Positions 53,455 to 60,674 of a DNA stretch of 64,000 bases are shown piece by piece. Positions within the stretch are counted from its first letter, which is position 1, and each line of letters begins with the position of its first letter. The notes under the pieces are model-generated. The model saw only the letters and a list, made by a program, of their open reading frames with translations, did not search any database and had not been told where the DNA came from. Made by a program: the position numbers and the translations under genes. This DNA is from Bacteroidia bacterium (GTDB lineage: Bacteria; Bacteroidota; Bacteroidia; CAIKAF01), in assembly GCA_016742095.1 (NCBI GenBank), contig JACVCJ010000005.1:67335-131334 (forward strand). The letters are read 5' to 3'.

Positions 53455-54465
53455 TTATTCTGCGATCAGCAGGCTGCAGCCGCGCACATCGCTGTGATCG
53501 AAGCGGCCCAGTACTTCAAAACGGCCGTCTGCATGCTTTTTGCCCAGGTCCTGCGTGGCAATGAAGGCACAGGTATCGATATTGGCGCCGTCGATCACGT
53601 GAATGGCCCCGGTCTTCCCGCTGGCCGTGGCTGAAAAAGGATCGTCCGTATCGAAGATCTGTATGTCCATCCAGGGAGGCGCTTCAAACAGTCCTTCGCC
53701 TTTGCTGTAGGCCTGGGAGAGCAGTTCGGTCATGCCGTATTCCGAGTGAATGTGCCGTACGTTGAACTGCCGGCAGTAGATCTCGTGCAGTTCGGCCCGG
53801 GTGGGTTCGGTGCGGCGGCCTTTCATTCCGCCGGTTTCCATAACGATACAGTCCGAAAAGTTGAACTGTCCGCTTTCGGCCAGGTCCAGCAGGGCAAAAG
53901 AAACGCCCAGGAGCAGTACGAGTATGCCCTGTTTTTTACAGGTATCGATGGCATTCAGCAAGGCTTCGCCGGTATGCAGGTAAAAGCCGCTTTGTTCAAA
54001 ACGGCTTCGCAGGCGCAGCTGTTCGCACATATAGATCAGTGAAGAACCTTCGCGTTCCATGTAGGACGGCAGCAGGAAGAAAAAAGCAAAACCGGCCGGA
54101 TCGCCGTAAAAACGGGTGAACGCGTGCAGGAAGCTATCGGTATAGAGCGTTTCTTCATAAAGCAGGTGGCTGCTGGTCTGCATACCCGCGGTACCGCTGC
54201 TGCTGAAGCGCAAAACGGGCTCCCAGCTGCCGCTCTGTACGGTGTGTGTTTTAAAAAAGGAAACGGGCAGAAAGGGAATGGCCTGCCGCTGCTGCACCTT
54301 GTCCGGGGTTTTACCCAGCAGATCGCAGAATTGCCGGTACAGGGGATTGTAGGTATACTGAAAGGCAAACAGGTCCAGGAAATAGGCGTCGCGTTCCTGT
54401 TCCGTTGCCGGCAGGAAGACACGTTGGCGCAAACGGGCCCGGTGTTGCAGGTAAGCCTGGTCCAT
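53455..54465 (-). CDS. LuxE-like acyl-protein synthetase family protein
   Basis: The 336-residue product belongs to the acyl-protein synthetase/LuxE family of adenylate-forming enzymes: FLPVSFFKTHTVQSGSWEPVLRFSSSGTAGMQTSSHLL (the Ser/Thr/Gly nucleotide loop), DCIVMETGGMKGRRTEPTRAEL and HIHSEYGMTELLSQAYSKG. Such enzymes activate a carboxylic acid with ATP and may transfer it to a thiol or protein. The substrate here is unknown. I chose the ATG at 54465 because a TACCTTTG box (54471-54478) ends 5 nt before it. It follows pfkA by 16 bases and may also be read from that gene. Confidence 0.85.
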   Translation of the reverse strand: MDQAYLQHRARLRQRVFLPATEQERDAYFLDLFAFQYTYNPLYRQFCDLLGKTPDKVQQRQAIPFLPVSFFKTHTVQSGSWEPVLRFSSSGTAGMQTSSHLLYEETLYTDSFLHAFTRFYGDPAGFAFFFLLPSYMEREGSSLIYMCEQLRLRSRFEQSGFYLHTGEALLNAIDTCKKQGILVLLLGVSFALLDLAESGQFNFSDCIVMETGGMKGRRTEPTRAELHEIYCRQFNVRHIHSEYGMTELLSQAYSKGEGLFEAPPWMDIQIFDTDDPFSATASGKTGAIHVIDGANIDTCAFIATQDLGKKHADGRFEVLGRFDHSDVRGCSLLIAE

Positions 54466-54470
54466 GGGCA

Positions 54471-54478
54471 CAAAGGTA
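54471..54478 (-). promoter_or_regulatory. -7 box for the LuxE-like gene, near-leaderless
   Basis: Minus-strand TACCTTTG ends 5 nt before the ATG and sits in the gap after pfkA. No -33 element is visible in the pfkA end. Confidence 0.5.
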
Positions 54479-56087: not shown

Positions 56088-56762
56088 TCATTCCGGTTCC
56101 GGGCTCACCAGGCCGGTACGCAGCCCGTACAGCACGAGGCCTGCGCGCGATCTTACGTTCAGTTTTTCAAAGGCAGAGGCCCGGTATCCCTCAATGGTCT
56201 TGAGACTGAGGAACATTTTATCGGCAATTTCCTGGTAGGTATCTTCGGAGCAGGCCAGTTTCACAAACTGTAATTCCCGGTCGTTGAGCAGGGGATGGGT
56301 AAGGGGCGCTTCGGGTTCTCCTTCGGGATGCAGCACCATGTTCAGCAGTTTACCCGAAATAAAATCGGTAAAATAGAACTGTCCGCTCATTACGGTCTGT
56401 ATGGCATTGTTGAGTTCGAGCGGGGCCACGTCCTTGGTCAGGTAGCCTTTGATGCCGCTGCGCAGCATACGTACGATGGTCTCTTCGCGGCTGATCATGG
56501 AAACCACCAGTATGCGTATGGAAGGATAGATGCGGCGGAGTTTCTGCACGAGTTCAAAGCCGTTCATGCGGGGCATGTCGATGTCGAGCACGGCTATCTG
56601 GGGCAGGTTATCGTCTTTGAGCAGGCCCAGGAATTCGGCGCCGTCGCCGGCCTCGATGATAATTTCATAGGCAGGATCGAAGGACTGAATGAGCGAGATA
56701 AGTCCCTTACGGAACAGCGTATGGTCGTCGACCACGGCAATTTTCAGGGGAGCAACGGGCAT
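56088..56762 (-). CDS. NarL/LuxR-type response regulator
   Basis: The 224-residue product has an N-terminal receiver domain (KIAVVDDHTLFRKGL; phospho-acceptor Asp in VLDIDMPRMNG; Lys in KGYLTKDV) and a C-terminal LuxR helix-turn-helix (LNDRELQFVKLACSEDTYQEIADKMFLSLKTIEGYRASAFEKLNVRSRAGLV). It is phosphorylated by the kinase whose gene lies 13 bases upstream and then binds DNA. It is the last gene of a five-gene unit that also holds a seven-helix membrane protein and two exported paralogues. Confidence 0.95.
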   Translation of the reverse strand: MPVAPLKIAVVDDHTLFRKGLISLIQSFDPAYEIIIEAGDGAEFLGLLKDDNLPQIAVLDIDMPRMNGFELVQKLRRIYPSIRILVVSMISREETIVRMLRSGIKGYLTKDVAPLELNNAIQTVMSGQFYFTDFISGKLLNMVLHPEGEPEAPLTHPLLNDRELQFVKLACSEDTYQEIADKMFLSLKTIEGYRASAFEKLNVRSRAGLVLYGLRTGLVSPEPE

Positions 56763-56775
56763 GTTTTCAGGTGTT

Positions 56776-57576
56776 TTACAGCGGTAATTTAAGAATAAAA
56801 CGGCTTCCTTCACCGGGGGCGCTTTCTATTTCCAGGCCGGCATGTATCCATTCACAGCGTTTCTGCAGGTTACGCAGTCCCGATCTACGGCGGGCGGCCC
56901 CTTCCTGCAGGGCCAGATCGGGGTTAAAGCCGATGCCGTTGTCACGGAAGCTGATGGCCAGGTGTTCGGGTTGCAGTTCAAGGTCTATGTGTATCTCCGT
57001 GGCCTGTGCATGCTTCAGCATATTGTTGAGGATCTCCTGGCTGATGCGGAAGAGGAAGACCTCGATGTTCTTATCAAGCTGCGGAACGGGTGCAGGCAGG
57101 TTCAGGTGTACGGACACGATACCGGTGCGGGCAATGCGCTCGCTTTCTTCTTCCAGTGCGCGGAAAAAGCCTTTCTCAGAAAGATGTTCGGTGTTCAGGC
57201 TCTGGGAAAGTTGTCGCATATCGCGGGTGAGCCGCCGCAGGAGTTCGCGGGATTCCTGCAGTTTGGCCTCGGCCTGCGGATTTTCGGGCGGCGGAAAGGT
57301 ATGCAGGTGGATATTGATGAGGGAGGCGATCTGCCCCAGGTTATCGTGAATTTCGGAGGAAACATGCTGCAGGATCTGGGTCTGTATCTCCATGCGGGAT
57401 TCCATAACGGCCTCCTGGTACTGGGCTTCGAGGCGTTTTTGTTCGTTGGCGTGCAATAGCTGTTTCTGCCGGTAGAGGAACATGAAGTAAATGATGAAAC
57501 CGGCGAGGATCAGAAAAACGATAGAGCCGGCGATCATGGCTATCAGTAGCTCTTTATTTTCCAGGTTGATTGTCAT
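56776..57576 (-). CDS. Histidine kinase with a single membrane helix
   Basis: The 266-residue product has a short N-terminus, one membrane helix (about 10-33), a helical linker and a catalytic core. The phospho-accepting His is in SEIHDNLGQIASL, and the ATPase domain shows the N box (QEILNNMLKHA), DNGIGF and the GLRNLQKR and GEGSRFI boxes. Almost no part lies outside the membrane, so it cannot sense an external signal alone. Its first 23 bases overlap the end of the upstream seven-helix membrane protein gene, which suggests coupled translation and a shared complex. The partner regulator follows 13 bases later. Confidence 0.95.
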   Translation of the reverse strand: MTINLENKELLIAMIAGSIVFLILAGFIIYFMFLYRQKQLLHANEQKRLEAQYQEAVMESRMEIQTQILQHVSSEIHDNLGQIASLINIHLHTFPPPENPQAEAKLQESRELLRRLTRDMRQLSQSLNTEHLSEKGFFRALEEESERIARTGIVSVHLNLPAPVPQLDKNIEVFLFRISQEILNNMLKHAQATEIHIDLELQPEHLAISFRDNGIGFNPDLALQEGAARRRSGLRNLQKRCEWIHAGLEIESAPGEGSRFILKLPL

Positions 57577-58216
57577 GGGATGGAGTCTTTTTATTTCCTA
57601 AGTACAGCGAAATTCCATAAAAGGTATAAGCCAGTATGGTAAAAACGGCAATTACACTTTCATATACATCAGGTATGCCCCCGGAAGCAATAAGAATATT
57701 GTAGAAAGCAAAATAGAGGAAGGATGTAGTGTATAGTACCAGGTTGGCCGTATTGAACCAAAAAGACGCTTCAGCAAGCAGGGGCCTTTCTCCCGGGGAG
57801 CGAAGCATAAGAACAAAAGAGCTCAGAATGAGAATGAGCGTAAAGATACTTGCGAGTAGTATAGCGTACGAAGGAAAAGTGAGGGGCCGCTGAATAAAAA
57901 TACTGTTGGTCAAGGAAAAAATGCATAGAATAATGGCCGTAACGATAGCATAATTTCTTATGAAACCTATGTTTTTGTATAATTTCGTATATACATAACA
58001 TTGTAGTAGGTAACAAAGTATAACGTGGATATGATAAGGTGGGCTGCTGTTGCGTATTGTATAGGACAATACGCGCGCCAAAACTTCTGTGCTAAAGGTG
58101 AGTATGCATATGAGCGTTAGCGTTTTAAGCCAGGCGGGCATTTCCCGGAAGTGGAAAATGCCGTAACCTGAGCTTACAAGTAGAATGGTAAAGTAGATCC
58201 AGAAGTCGGGAGTCAT
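57554..58216 (-). CDS. Seven-helix membrane protein, putative sensor partner of the kinase
   Basis: The 220-residue product has seven predicted membrane helices (about 6-22, 30-50, 61-79, 86-108, 114-138, 149-176 and 185-206) and a short cytosolic tail. I recognise no named family, though small seven-helix proteins beside kinases are frequent in Bacteroidota. Its 3' end overlaps the kinase start by 23 bases. Base composition is visibly more AT-rich than the flanking genes. I infer that it senses a signal in or outside the membrane and controls the kinase; that is unproven. Confidence 0.8.
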   Translation of the reverse strand: MTPDFWIYFTILLVSSGYGIFHFREMPAWLKTLTLICILTFSTEVLARVLSYTIRNSSPPYHIHVILCYLLQCYVYTKLYKNIGFIRNYAIVTAIILCIFSLTNSIFIQRPLTFPSYAILLASIFTLILILSSFVLMLRSPGERPLLAEASFWFNTANLVLYTTSFLYFAFYNILIASGGIPDVYESVIAVFTILAYTFYGISLYLGNKKTPSHDNQPGK

Positions 58217-58240
58217 AGCGCAAGTTGTTAAATTTTAATT

Positions 58241-58921
58241 TTAGTGTAAAGGATAGGTATATGCCGGATCTTTAAAAATGCTGTCTATATTGTCCGGACA
58301 ATTATCCGGGCAGGGTTTCAGATATTCAAAAAATACTCTTCTTGTGTTTGATTTGTCGAAAACTATGTCTCCGTTTTTCCCATTTGGTTTTATACCCGCG
58401 ATTAATAAACTTACATATTTTGTAGATGGAGTGCTATCTGGTTCCGGGCGCATTATCGGTACAAGAAAAATTTCGGTTATCTGATCATTTTGTATAGAAC
58501 CACCTTTCCGTCTGCGCTCCTGTTGTTGTGTAGGCCTCTGATCATATAGGTCTAAGAGTGGTTTAATTGAGGCTATATCCATTCGCCATCCGCGTAAAGG
58601 TTTATCTTCAAATGGATTTTTATGTGGGTCTTTACCATCAGTTAAGATGTTATTTTGCATTAACTTTTCATAAGCCTTTTTACATATTACAGCTGTACGA
58701 TAGTTTATTTGTTTTGTAGTAATTTTGTTTCCCTTCTTGTCGACTAATTCTTCAAAGCGTAACCCGTTAAACGAATTTAAGTTCGGCTGTTCTGAAGACT
58801 TTTGTGCGATTGCCGTGAGAAAAAGAGAATCTTCTTTTTCAATTAAGCGAAAGGATAATGCGGCAATAATTAAGAGAAGCAGCGCGATCACCCCGATCGC
58901 AGGTTTGGAAAACGTTTTCAT
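58241..58921 (-). CDS. Exported or membrane-anchored protein with EYLKPCPDNCP motif (paralogue B)
   Basis: The 226-residue product has one N-terminal hydrophobic helix (about 7-23) and a soluble body outside the cytosol. The second half shares with the upstream neighbour the motifs PLRGWRMDIASIKPLL, LVPIMRP, YVSLLIAGI and EYLKPCPDNCPDNIDSIF. The two cysteines in the last motif could form a disulfide. I know no family for it. The gene is AT-rich and lies 24 bases before the seven-helix protein gene, so it is probably part of the same operon. Confidence 0.78.
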   Translation of the reverse strand: MKTFSKPAIGVIALLLLIIAALSFRLIEKEDSLFLTAIAQKSSEQPNLNSFNGLRFEELVDKKGNKITTKQINYRTAVICKKAYEKLMQNNILTDGKDPHKNPFEDKPLRGWRMDIASIKPLLDLYDQRPTQQQERRRKGGSIQNDQITEIFLVPIMRPEPDSTPSTKYVSLLIAGIKPNGKNGDIVFDKSNTRRVFFEYLKPCPDNCPDNIDSIFKDPAYTYPLH

Positions 58922-58964
58922 AATTTCAGAGATTTAGGATTTAAGGCTAATATAAACAAATGAT

Positions 58965-59687
58965 TTACTGTTGTTTGTTAAAAATGTCGTTCATTTTTTT
59001 CGGACAGTTATTGGGGCAGGGCTTCAGGTATTCGTACAGATCGGCTCTGCCGTCGCTTTTGCGTATGATGTTGTTGTTTGCGTCGATGCCGGCTACGATG
59101 AGTGTAAGATAACGCCCGGGATCAATGCAGCTGCCGGGATTGTCCGAAGGTCTCAGGGCCGGGATCAGCAACAGTTCTTTGGCCGGTGCTATGCCGGACA
59201 TCGGGGACGGATTAAGCAGGCTTTTAATGCTGTCCAGTTCCAGGCGCCAGCCTTTCAGAGGTGCCTCCGATACATCAGGCCCTTCGATGGTATCCACCCG
59301 GAAATAAGAGCCCATGAACACATCGAACGAATCTCTGATGCAGGCGGCCACACTGGATAGAACCGGTTTGGTATCTCCCCGGTCTTCCATTTTCAGGCTG
59401 AACAGGTTGTAAATTAACAGTTCCTGTACACGCGGAGAGGTAGCGACGATATAAAGGGCTTCAGCCTCCTGCGTGCTGTAATGACTGCCCAGGCCTTCTC
59501 TCAGCTCTTTCCGCTGGGTGTTTTTATTCTGGAGTATTCCCTTTTCATTCAGGAGTTTCTGCAACGCCTCACTTCCCGGTGGCGGCGTCAGTACCTGCGC
59601 ACGCAGGCCCGACAGAGGACTGAAAATAAGGACGAAAAAGAAAACGACCCCAAGCGTTTTCCGACGGATGTTGTTTTGTGCATTCAT
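58965..59687 (-). CDS. Exported protein with EYLKPCPNNCP motif (paralogue A)
   Basis: The 240-residue product has a signal peptide (LGVVFFFVLIFSPLSGLRAQ, cleavage near residue 31). A helical region and a C-terminal domain follow with PLKGWRLELDSIKSLL, LLIPALRP, YLTLIVAGI and YEYLKPCPNNCPKKMNDIF. It is clearly paralogous to the next gene, 43 bases downstream. It differs from that neighbour in having a cleavable signal rather than an anchoring helix. It is the first gene of the five-gene unit, and the function is unknown. Confidence 0.8.
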   Translation of the reverse strand: MNAQNNIRRKTLGVVFFFVLIFSPLSGLRAQVLTPPPGSEALQKLLNEKGILQNKNTQRKELREGLGSHYSTQEAEALYIVATSPRVQELLIYNLFSLKMEDRGDTKPVLSSVAACIRDSFDVFMGSYFRVDTIEGPDVSEAPLKGWRLELDSIKSLLNPSPMSGIAPAKELLLIPALRPSDNPGSCIDPGRYLTLIVAGIDANNNIIRKSDGRADLYEYLKPCPNNCPKKMNDIFNKQQ

Positions 59688-59972
59688 AAATTTTGTAGAA
59701 TTAATGGTTTAGGCCAAAATTAAAAGGCTATTTCCGCCTGTGCACGGCCACAGGTCCGATTCAGGGATAATCCTTTCCTTCCCCTTTTTTTAATGCATTT
59801 TTTATGAGTTTGTTATCGGTTTTTTCGTGAAAAATTTGTATCTTAATACACTGAAAATGCCCGTGTGCCTTCTCTGGTTTTTCCCTGTCCATTCCAGGGT
59901 TTTACCCCATAGAGGTCCCGGAATATTTTCCTATCCTCCCTCACCCGAACGGTAACTAATTTTAAACCATAT
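59688..59972. other. Divergent intergenic region
   Basis: These 285 bases separate the five-gene minus-strand unit from the plus-strand unknown gene. No strong promoter box was recognised on either strand, and there is no coding frame of interest. Confidence 0.45.
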
Positions 59973-60674
59973 ATGGCAAACCGGATCACGGTACAGAAAT
60001 TCCGTAAGCTCTACAACAATGCCCTGCTCTTCAATCCCTCCTCCGCGAACTATGAAGTGGGCTGCCAGTTCGAATACGAAGCCGGCAGCGGTCGCCGTAT
60101 GTTCGAGATCGGCACCTACTTCAGCTCCTATATTCCCCTGGCCGACGCCGATAACGAGTATTTCGAGACCTATTTCGACAAGATCGGTACCGATGAACCC
60201 GACCAGGCCGTTTTCGCCGGACTTGATATCACCACCAGCATCGATATTAAACTCGGACTGAAAATTCCCTATGTGAAAATGGATATCGGCGCCACCATCA
60301 ATTATGCCGATGTCACCCGCATCTCCTTCGAGGAAGTGAGCTGCCGCAGCCTGATGCACGATAAGAAAACGGCCGGACGTATCATCAAGACCCTGAGCGA
60401 TTCCAAAACCAAAAATCCGAAGCAGTTCAAACGCCTCATCGAGCCGGTAATGTTCCTGCATGACGTGTATTATGCGAAAAAAGTGAAGATATCCATCGAT
60501 AACGGCTGGGGCGCCAACCTGAAAGTGAAACTGGAAGACCTGGGCATCGGCTTTGATGTGGACGGAAACCTGAAAACCCTGTCTACTTTTACCTTCGAAG
60601 GGAATACAAAGGTGCCTTTTGCCGGCCGCATAGAATCCCTGGGCGACCTCATCAAAAGTACCCGCGGACGTTAA
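59973..60674 (+). CDS. Cytosolic beta-rich protein of unknown function
   Basis: The 233-residue product has no signal peptide or membrane helix. It begins MANRITVQKFRKLYNNALLF and is mixed: a helical N-terminal stretch, beta-rich sections (YEVGCQFEYEAGSGRRMFEIGTYFSSYI, VKISIDNGWGANLKVKLEDLGIGFDV) and a central helix (GRIIKTLSDSKTKNPKQFKRLIEPV). I recognise no family. I considered a pore-forming protein such as a bacterial gasdermin and found no supporting motif. It is a single gene, convergent to radA with 10 bases between stops. Confidence 0.75.
   Translation: MANRITVQKFRKLYNNALLFNPSSANYEVGCQFEYEAGSGRRMFEIGTYFSSYIPLADADNEYFETYFDKIGTDEPDQAVFAGLDITTSIDIKLGLKIPYVKMDIGATINYADVTRISFEEVSCRSLMHDKKTAGRIIKTLSDSKTKNPKQFKRLIEPVMFLHDVYYAKKVKISIDNGWGANLKVKLEDLGIGFDVDGNLKTLSTFTFEGNTKVPFAGRIESLGDLIKSTRGR

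Follow-up and report, generated by a model that had tools for sequence, protein, structure and literature searches.

Introduction

In the UhpABC system for sugar-phosphate sensing, the partner protein UhpC is a relative of the 12-helix transporters, and the kinase UhpB has a large membrane domain. Membrane partners can supply the signal to kinases that have no domain outside the cytoplasm (PMC8534201, section 3.2): the BceS-type kinases possess two membrane helices and have ATP-binding cassette (ABC) transporters as partners (PMC8534201), and LiaF is the partner of the Lia-type kinase (PMC3543457). Moreover, an accessory lipoprotein, QseG, can directly activate the kinase QseE (PMC12691602). 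Here, we describe a five-gene unit on the minus strand of a 64,000-nucleotide stretch of DNA from a Bacteroidia bacterium (contig JACVCJ010000005.1, positions 67,335 to 131,334; hereafter the window). The unit encodes two proteins with a C-terminal CPxxC motif, a seven-helix membrane protein, a histidine kinase and a response regulator. Our work indicates that this is probably a self-contained sensory cassette of four parts, present here in a five-gene form, in which the seven-helix protein would be the receptor that acts in trans on the kinase, with the CPxxC protein as a modulator.

Results

The five genes of the window

A preliminary description of this DNA had placed five minus-strand genes at 56088-59687. 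The five open reading frames (ORFs) were confirmed with successive gaps of 43, 24, -23 and 13 bases, and every coordinate given before proved to be correct. The genes are transcribed in the order P0001, P0002, P0003, P0004, P0005:

58965..59687, minus strand: P0001, CPxxC protein 1, 240 amino acids; ORF, signal peptide present; opens the unit
59004..59018, minus strand: CPNNC(P) motif of P0001, C224-C228; C-terminal motif that hardly varies within the family
58241..58921, minus strand: P0002, CPxxC protein 2, 226 amino acids; ORF with an N-terminal membrane helix, paralogue of P0001
58298..58312, minus strand: CPDNC(P) motif of P0002, C204-C208; C-terminal motif that hardly varies within the family
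57554..58216, minus strand: P0003, seven-helix membrane protein, 220 amino acids; seven membrane helices in the AlphaFold2 model
56776..57576, minus strand: P0004, HisKA_3 histidine kinase, 266 amino acids; PF07730 at 7e-7, PF02518 at 7e-13
56088..56762, minus strand: P0005, NarL/LuxR-type response regulator; PF00072 at 7.5e-23, PF00196 at 2.5e-10

For P0005, the ATG at 56762 was taken as the start, and this choice gives the 13-base gap; the frame is also open from a GTG at 56813. As had been noted before, the kinase P0004 has one membrane helix and almost no external part (about nine residues precede the helix), and its start overlaps the seven-helix gene (-23); a sensor domain is absent. The catalytic boxes of P0004 are intact (phospho-acceptor H77, NNMLKH at 184, DNGIGF at 212), and P0005 consists of Response_reg and GerE/LuxR domains with an intact LDIDMP receiver motif. 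Judged by the HisKA_3 and HATPase_c boxes and by the adjacent receiver-LuxR gene, P0004 and P0005 have the make-up of a two-component system. P0001 is paralogous to P0002 (E value 4e-12, with 36% identity across some 130 residues), and the two proteins share the ending EYLKPCP(N/D)NCP. The signal peptide of P0001 looks cleavable (..FSPLSGLRAQ), the N-terminal helix of P0002 looks uncleaved, and a lipobox is absent from both proteins. P0001, P0002 and P0003 had zero matches in Pfam, NCBIfam, PADLOC and PHROGs. An origin in anti-phage defence or in a phage was considered and rejected: the seven-helix and CPxxC proteins have no PADLOC match, the regulator has a weak one, and none of them matches a PHROG.

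Linkage of the four families across the Bacteroidota

Protein searches identified four further cassettes in the genome of the window, on contigs C3, C55, C37 and C30, all of them in the order CPxxC gene, seven-helix gene, kinase gene, regulator gene and each with one CPxxC gene; a lone seven-helix gene lies elsewhere on C37. Their members are mostly 13-41% identical to the counterparts in the window, thus indicating that the cassettes of this genome are old paralogues. In a genome of a sister genus (G012), we found the five-gene form with two CPxxC paralogues, the first of which has no signal peptide.

A profile of the seven-helix family was then run against 395 genomes of the class and, separately, against 395 genomes drawn from the phylum. 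It matched in 95 genomes of the class set and in 79 of the phylum set, eight of these in other classes; both counts are minimum values, because scoring was restricted to the best few candidates of each genome and the CPxxC search turned up cassettes with a seven-helix gene that the profile had missed. The surroundings of 60 matches, together with the loci of the window's own genome and of G012, made up a set of 67 seven-helix-seeded loci, in which a kinase was a neighbour at 62, a regulator at 56 and a CPxxC-type protein at 52; many of the missing partners can be put down to the end of a contig, to artefacts of the start codon or to motif variants that lack the cysteines. Starting from the other family, the CPxxC profile was found in 92 of 395 genomes. 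Forty regions were fetched, 37 of which had room to look, and in these a polytopic gene came next to the CPxxC gene in 31 cases; 28 of the 37 regions had the kinase, and 27 had the regulator. If both seed sets are pooled, 72 of the 96 seven-helix genes lie in a complete four-gene cassette. The median spacings within the cassette are 7.5, -30 and 0 bases, with overlaps that are overstated because the spacings were taken from the longest ORF. The loci from other classes keep the same order, sometimes with tandem seven-helix genes, and on plasmid NZ_CP089539.1 of Spirosoma oryzicola the cassette is annotated as "hypothetical, hypothetical, histidine kinase, response regulator". The family and order searches took in the same 16 genomes, and in a scan with a single compact CPxxC protein there were no more than three close loci, of which one is apparently the query's own record. 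A scan of genome contigs with the seven-helix alignment yielded no conserved stretch.

These data bear on the simplest explanation, i. e. that an ordinary two-component pair happens to lie beside two unrelated genes. Kinase and regulator families are common, and NarL-type pairs are abundant in the Bacteroidota. However, the same order recurs at many loci from either seed, in many families and with unrelated flanks, and this conserved linkage refutes a chance neighbourhood, to which we give practically no credit. Run from both seeds, the linkage search suggested in the preliminary description found the seven-helix and CPxxC homologues mostly linked to the kinase, and the refuting outcome named there, scattered homologues, did not arise. 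The proposal made there of one multi-part signalling unit without a described match is strongly supported by the copies in the own genome and by the two-way linkage across the phylum.

Tandem seven-helix genes within one cassette are present at loci L095, L152, L182, L183 and L189; at L152 and L189, each of the tandem genes has its own CPxxC gene.

The seven-helix family

The AlphaFold2 model of P0003 has seven membrane helices (predicted local distance difference test, pLDDT, 93.9), and the charged loops, read from the sequence, indicate an external N-terminus and an internal C-terminus. In Foldseek and VIA, the structures that match the model best are those of microbial rhodopsins, among them sensory rhodopsin II with HtrII, and of G-protein-coupled receptors (GPCRs). 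For the rhodopsins, Foldseek returned an E value of 0.02 and template modelling scores of 0.5-0.6, which helical bundles reach by chance; the VIA result, with which the GPCRs tie, lies in the chance range for helical bundles as well (Z 12.9, root-mean-square deviation 4.2, 198 of 217 residues). Since unrelated helical bundles reach such scores, we call P0003 rhodopsin-shaped rather than a rhodopsin. Membership in the microbial rhodopsins was rejected on the absence of a conserved helix-7 lysine from 64 family members: the retinal lysine is not conserved in helix 7 of these proteins, the central columns contain 0 to 2 lysines, the frequent lysines of this helix are found only at its cytoplasmic end, and P0003 has none. 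A Pfam search with the 64 members gave stray single matches only; there was no rhodopsin match, and no peptidase family was matched by more than one member.

The common intramembrane residues of the family are H62, E68, E122, W153, W186 and H189. The set H62/E68/E122/H189 reads HEEH in 19 of the 64 members, and H189 is linked to W186 and E122. The seven-helix protein of the window and its closest subgroup (from C3 and G012) lack E122 and H189, suggesting that the ligand of this subgroup may be a different one.

The CPxxC family

The compact members of the CPxxC family, 100-130 residues long, lack an export signal; the other members comprise lipoproteins as well as signal-anchored and secreted proteins. 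According to a rough count by hydropathy and lipobox, 51 of the CPxxC proteins in the 72 cassettes are soluble, eight are lipoproteins and 13 begin with a helix or a signal peptide, with at least one of the soluble assignments (L012) resting on a doubtful start. The earlier notion of two exported paralogues therefore applies to P0001 and P0002 but not to the system as such, which usually has a single CPxxC gene with a soluble product: the exported tandem pair of the window is a variant form of the cassette. The window subgroup and the compact group are connected by profile comparison (97.1% probability, E value 6.6e-11). None of 50 CPxxC members matched Pfam at 1e-3. The model of the C37 paralogue is of medium confidence (pLDDT 77.5); it had no structural match above noise and no thioredoxin-type match, the best hit being CopG at a noise-level Z of 3.2. 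Because of the medium confidence of this model, we do not claim a new fold. At L154:4244-4714 and L156:4565-5014, an exported CPxxC protein is encoded without a seven-helix gene and divergently from a membrane-anchored TPR-type protein in both genomes.

The CPxxC motif itself is present in 62 of the 72 cassettes, and its C-x3-C(P) pair resembles the CxxxCP copper site of Sco proteins. In combination with the recurrent intramembrane His/Glu set (HEEH) and the linkage of H189 to W186 and E122, this would fit a metal or redox sensor, in which the cysteine pair and the His/Glu site of the bundle gate the kinase, either as ligands of copper or of another metal or through a disulphide switch. Some members, however, replace the cysteines and keep the prolines (TPPF, SPPY, PPK); the proline-only members (TPPF, SPPY) indicate that the cysteines are not always needed. 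With only the first His retained in P0003, and a CPxxC model devoid of a thioredoxin-type match, we regard a metal or redox sensor as unlikely.

The layout of the cassette also resembles that of secreted-peptide quorum-sensing systems such as Agr and ComQXPA. A small first gene, a polytopic second one, and kinase and regulator genes at the end, a cysteine motif near the C-terminus and several paralogous cassettes per genome would all be expected if the CPxxC protein were a cysteine-bearing pheromone precursor that is processed or exported by the seven-helix protein and sensed by the kinase and the regulator. Yet most CPxxC proteins have no export signal, their homology extends along a whole domain of some 100 residues and does not follow the pattern of a leader with a variable tail, no peptidase family was matched by more than one of the 64 seven-helix members, and no transporter gene is conserved beside the cassettes. 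A pheromone system is thus a very unlikely explanation.

Kinases and co-divergence of the cassette members

The kinases of 66 of the 72 cassettes have a single membrane helix; two helices joined by a very short loop were found neither in P0004 nor in these 66 relatives. In the window and in all 72 full cassettes, the seven-helix part and the output module are encoded by separate genes. The distances among seven-helix proteins, kinases and regulators correlate (rho 0.54-0.68), and the observed values were reached by 0-11 of 1000 and 0-43 of 2000 within-genome swaps. This covariation above the level of the swaps indicates that the cassettes tend to diverge as units rather than to swap parts.

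At L181 and L188, proteins of 667 and 684 residues, possibly hybrid kinases, follow the seven-helix gene in place of the short kinase. The protein in the kinase slot of L143 (L143:3160-3873), with a membrane helix at its N-terminus and without a Pfam domain, is possibly a degenerate kinase.

Boundaries of the unit and neighbouring genes

Upstream of P0001, one further feature was assigned:

59688..59972, minus strand: upstream region of 285 bases, likely site of a single promoter, read from the sequence

In this region, an element TAATTTTG, similar to the Bacteroidota -7 box by consensus match only, is located 35 bases before the first start codon. A -33 box was not found in the 285 bases, and a sigma-70 promoter scan was uninformative.

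In 37 of 71 cases, the first gene to follow the regulator shares the strand of the cassette; for the nearest gene ahead of the CPxxC gene, this holds in 29 of 69, and both counts are about those expected of random orientation. The flanking proteins belong to many unrelated families, the most frequent being other response regulators (seven) and PixA inclusion-body proteins (three). The roughly random strands and the mixed families of the flanking genes show that the unit ends at four genes. In a clustering and Pfam tally of 114 flanking proteins, no conserved target gene stood out beside the cassette, and this lack of a conserved neighbour suggests that the target genes lie elsewhere.

In the window, a divergent gene for a 233-residue protein without a Pfam family (59973-60674) lies upstream of the unit, and a gene for a LuxE-like acyl-protein synthetase is found at 53455-54471. 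On the Spirosoma oryzicola plasmid (NZ_CP089539.1), three tail-fibre genes directly follow the cassette (L200:6550-8222); the PixA inclusion-body proteins flank three other cassettes. The C30 cassette is adjoined by LanC-like, HopA1-family and APH-like genes, which resemble a cluster for lanthipeptide synthesis (L017:7185-10490).

Discussion

The linkage, the order and the tight spacing of the cassette genes are conserved; from these, we infer how the cassette might work. Since the kinase is devoid of a sensor and its partners are co-conserved with it, we place the signal input in the seven-helix and CPxxC proteins, which would form the physical input of the system. We suggest that the seven-helix protein is a membrane receptor that works in trans by pairing with the one membrane helix of the dimeric kinase, as happens between sensory rhodopsin II and its transducer or between UhpC and UhpB. 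A ligand-driven shift in the seven-helix bundle would then change the kinase or the phosphatase activity that acts on the regulator. As a modulator, either soluble or tethered in the envelope, the CPxxC protein would bind the receptor or the kinase and bring in a signal, which could be a ligand, a metal or redox state, or the state of a protein. In most copies, a single CPxxC protein would act from the cytosol; in the window, the secreted and the membrane-anchored paralogue may act on the outer face. The regulator would act on unlinked genes. It is tempting to go one step further and to regard the seven-helix family as a rhodopsin/GPCR-shaped class of chemoreceptors that signal in trans via a sensor-less kinase throughout the Bacteroidota, with the CPxxC proteins as dedicated signal-binding partners, in the cytosol in most cases and in the envelope in others; we put forward this wider proposal as a tentative possibility.

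Several observations weigh against a receptor in trans with a CPxxC modulator. First, CPxxC proteins occur without a kinase at L147, L154, L156 and L160, and at L143 and L155 (G371) the kinase slot is taken by a protein of 237-242 residues without a match to the kinase profile. Second, the resemblance of the P0003 fold to its structural matches is barely at the level of chance matches for helical bundles (Z 12.9; E 0.02), and P0003 lacks the common intramembrane E, E and H of its family and possesses only the first His. Finally, the distances of the CPxxC proteins do not track those of the other three members (rho near 0): they are slightly above the swaps and too noisy to use, so that a dedicated one-to-one contact of the CPxxC protein would be no more than a possibility.

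Between a fifth and a quarter of the sampled genomes, as a minimum, carry the cassette, often in several copies. It offers a test case for a sensor-less kinase that would be driven by a separate, rhodopsin-shaped membrane protein, and the several cassettes per genome allow direct tests of pairing specificity. Moreover, many NarL-type pairs of the Bacteroidota that look like orphans could be the output half of such a cassette.

We did not find a description of the cassette in the literature, a statement that covers open-access papers, and an earlier account elsewhere is possible. Among the described systems, the receptor kinases of the 7TMR type have the seven-helix part fused to the signalling module, whereas the two are encoded by separate genes in the cassette. 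The Sco-type proteins have a thioredoxin fold and an N-terminal CxxxCP; the motif of the CPxxC proteins is C-terminal, and their medium-confidence model had no thioredoxin match. In sensory rhodopsin II-HtrII, which is among the structural matches, a small seven-helix protein is likewise paired with a helical membrane transducer; the cassette differs in the lack of a conserved helix-7 lysine (64 members) and the missing Pfam rhodopsin match, and in having a kinase in place of the methyl-accepting transducer. The QseEGF system has, to our knowledge, no seven-helix partner; the CPxxC proteins are mostly cytosolic and belong to no named family, and neither of the two in the window is a lipoprotein. 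What QseEGF shares with the cassette is an envelope accessory protein encoded with the kinase and the regulator (PMC12691602), and eight of the 72 cassettes have a CPxxC lipoprotein. As in the LiaFSR/VraTSR and Bce-type systems, a kinase without an extracytoplasmic domain would rely on a membrane accessory protein or be held by it (PMC8534201), but the cassette kinase has one helix, and its partners matched neither the LiaF family nor ABC transporters. With UhpC-UhpB-UhpA, the cassette has in common a membrane partner that would act in trans on a HisKA_3 kinase and a NarL-type regulator, and P0004 scores against the UhpB and LiaS models, in both cases below the cut-off; the cassette differs in its partner of 220 amino acids, a seven-helix protein of an unnamed family without a match to the major facilitator superfamily, in the one-helix kinase and in the presence of a fourth protein. 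The cassette is of a kind that is already known: it belongs with the two-component systems that have accessory parts. Of its four families, two, the CPxxC and the seven-helix proteins, are, as judged by profile searches, unnamed in Pfam.

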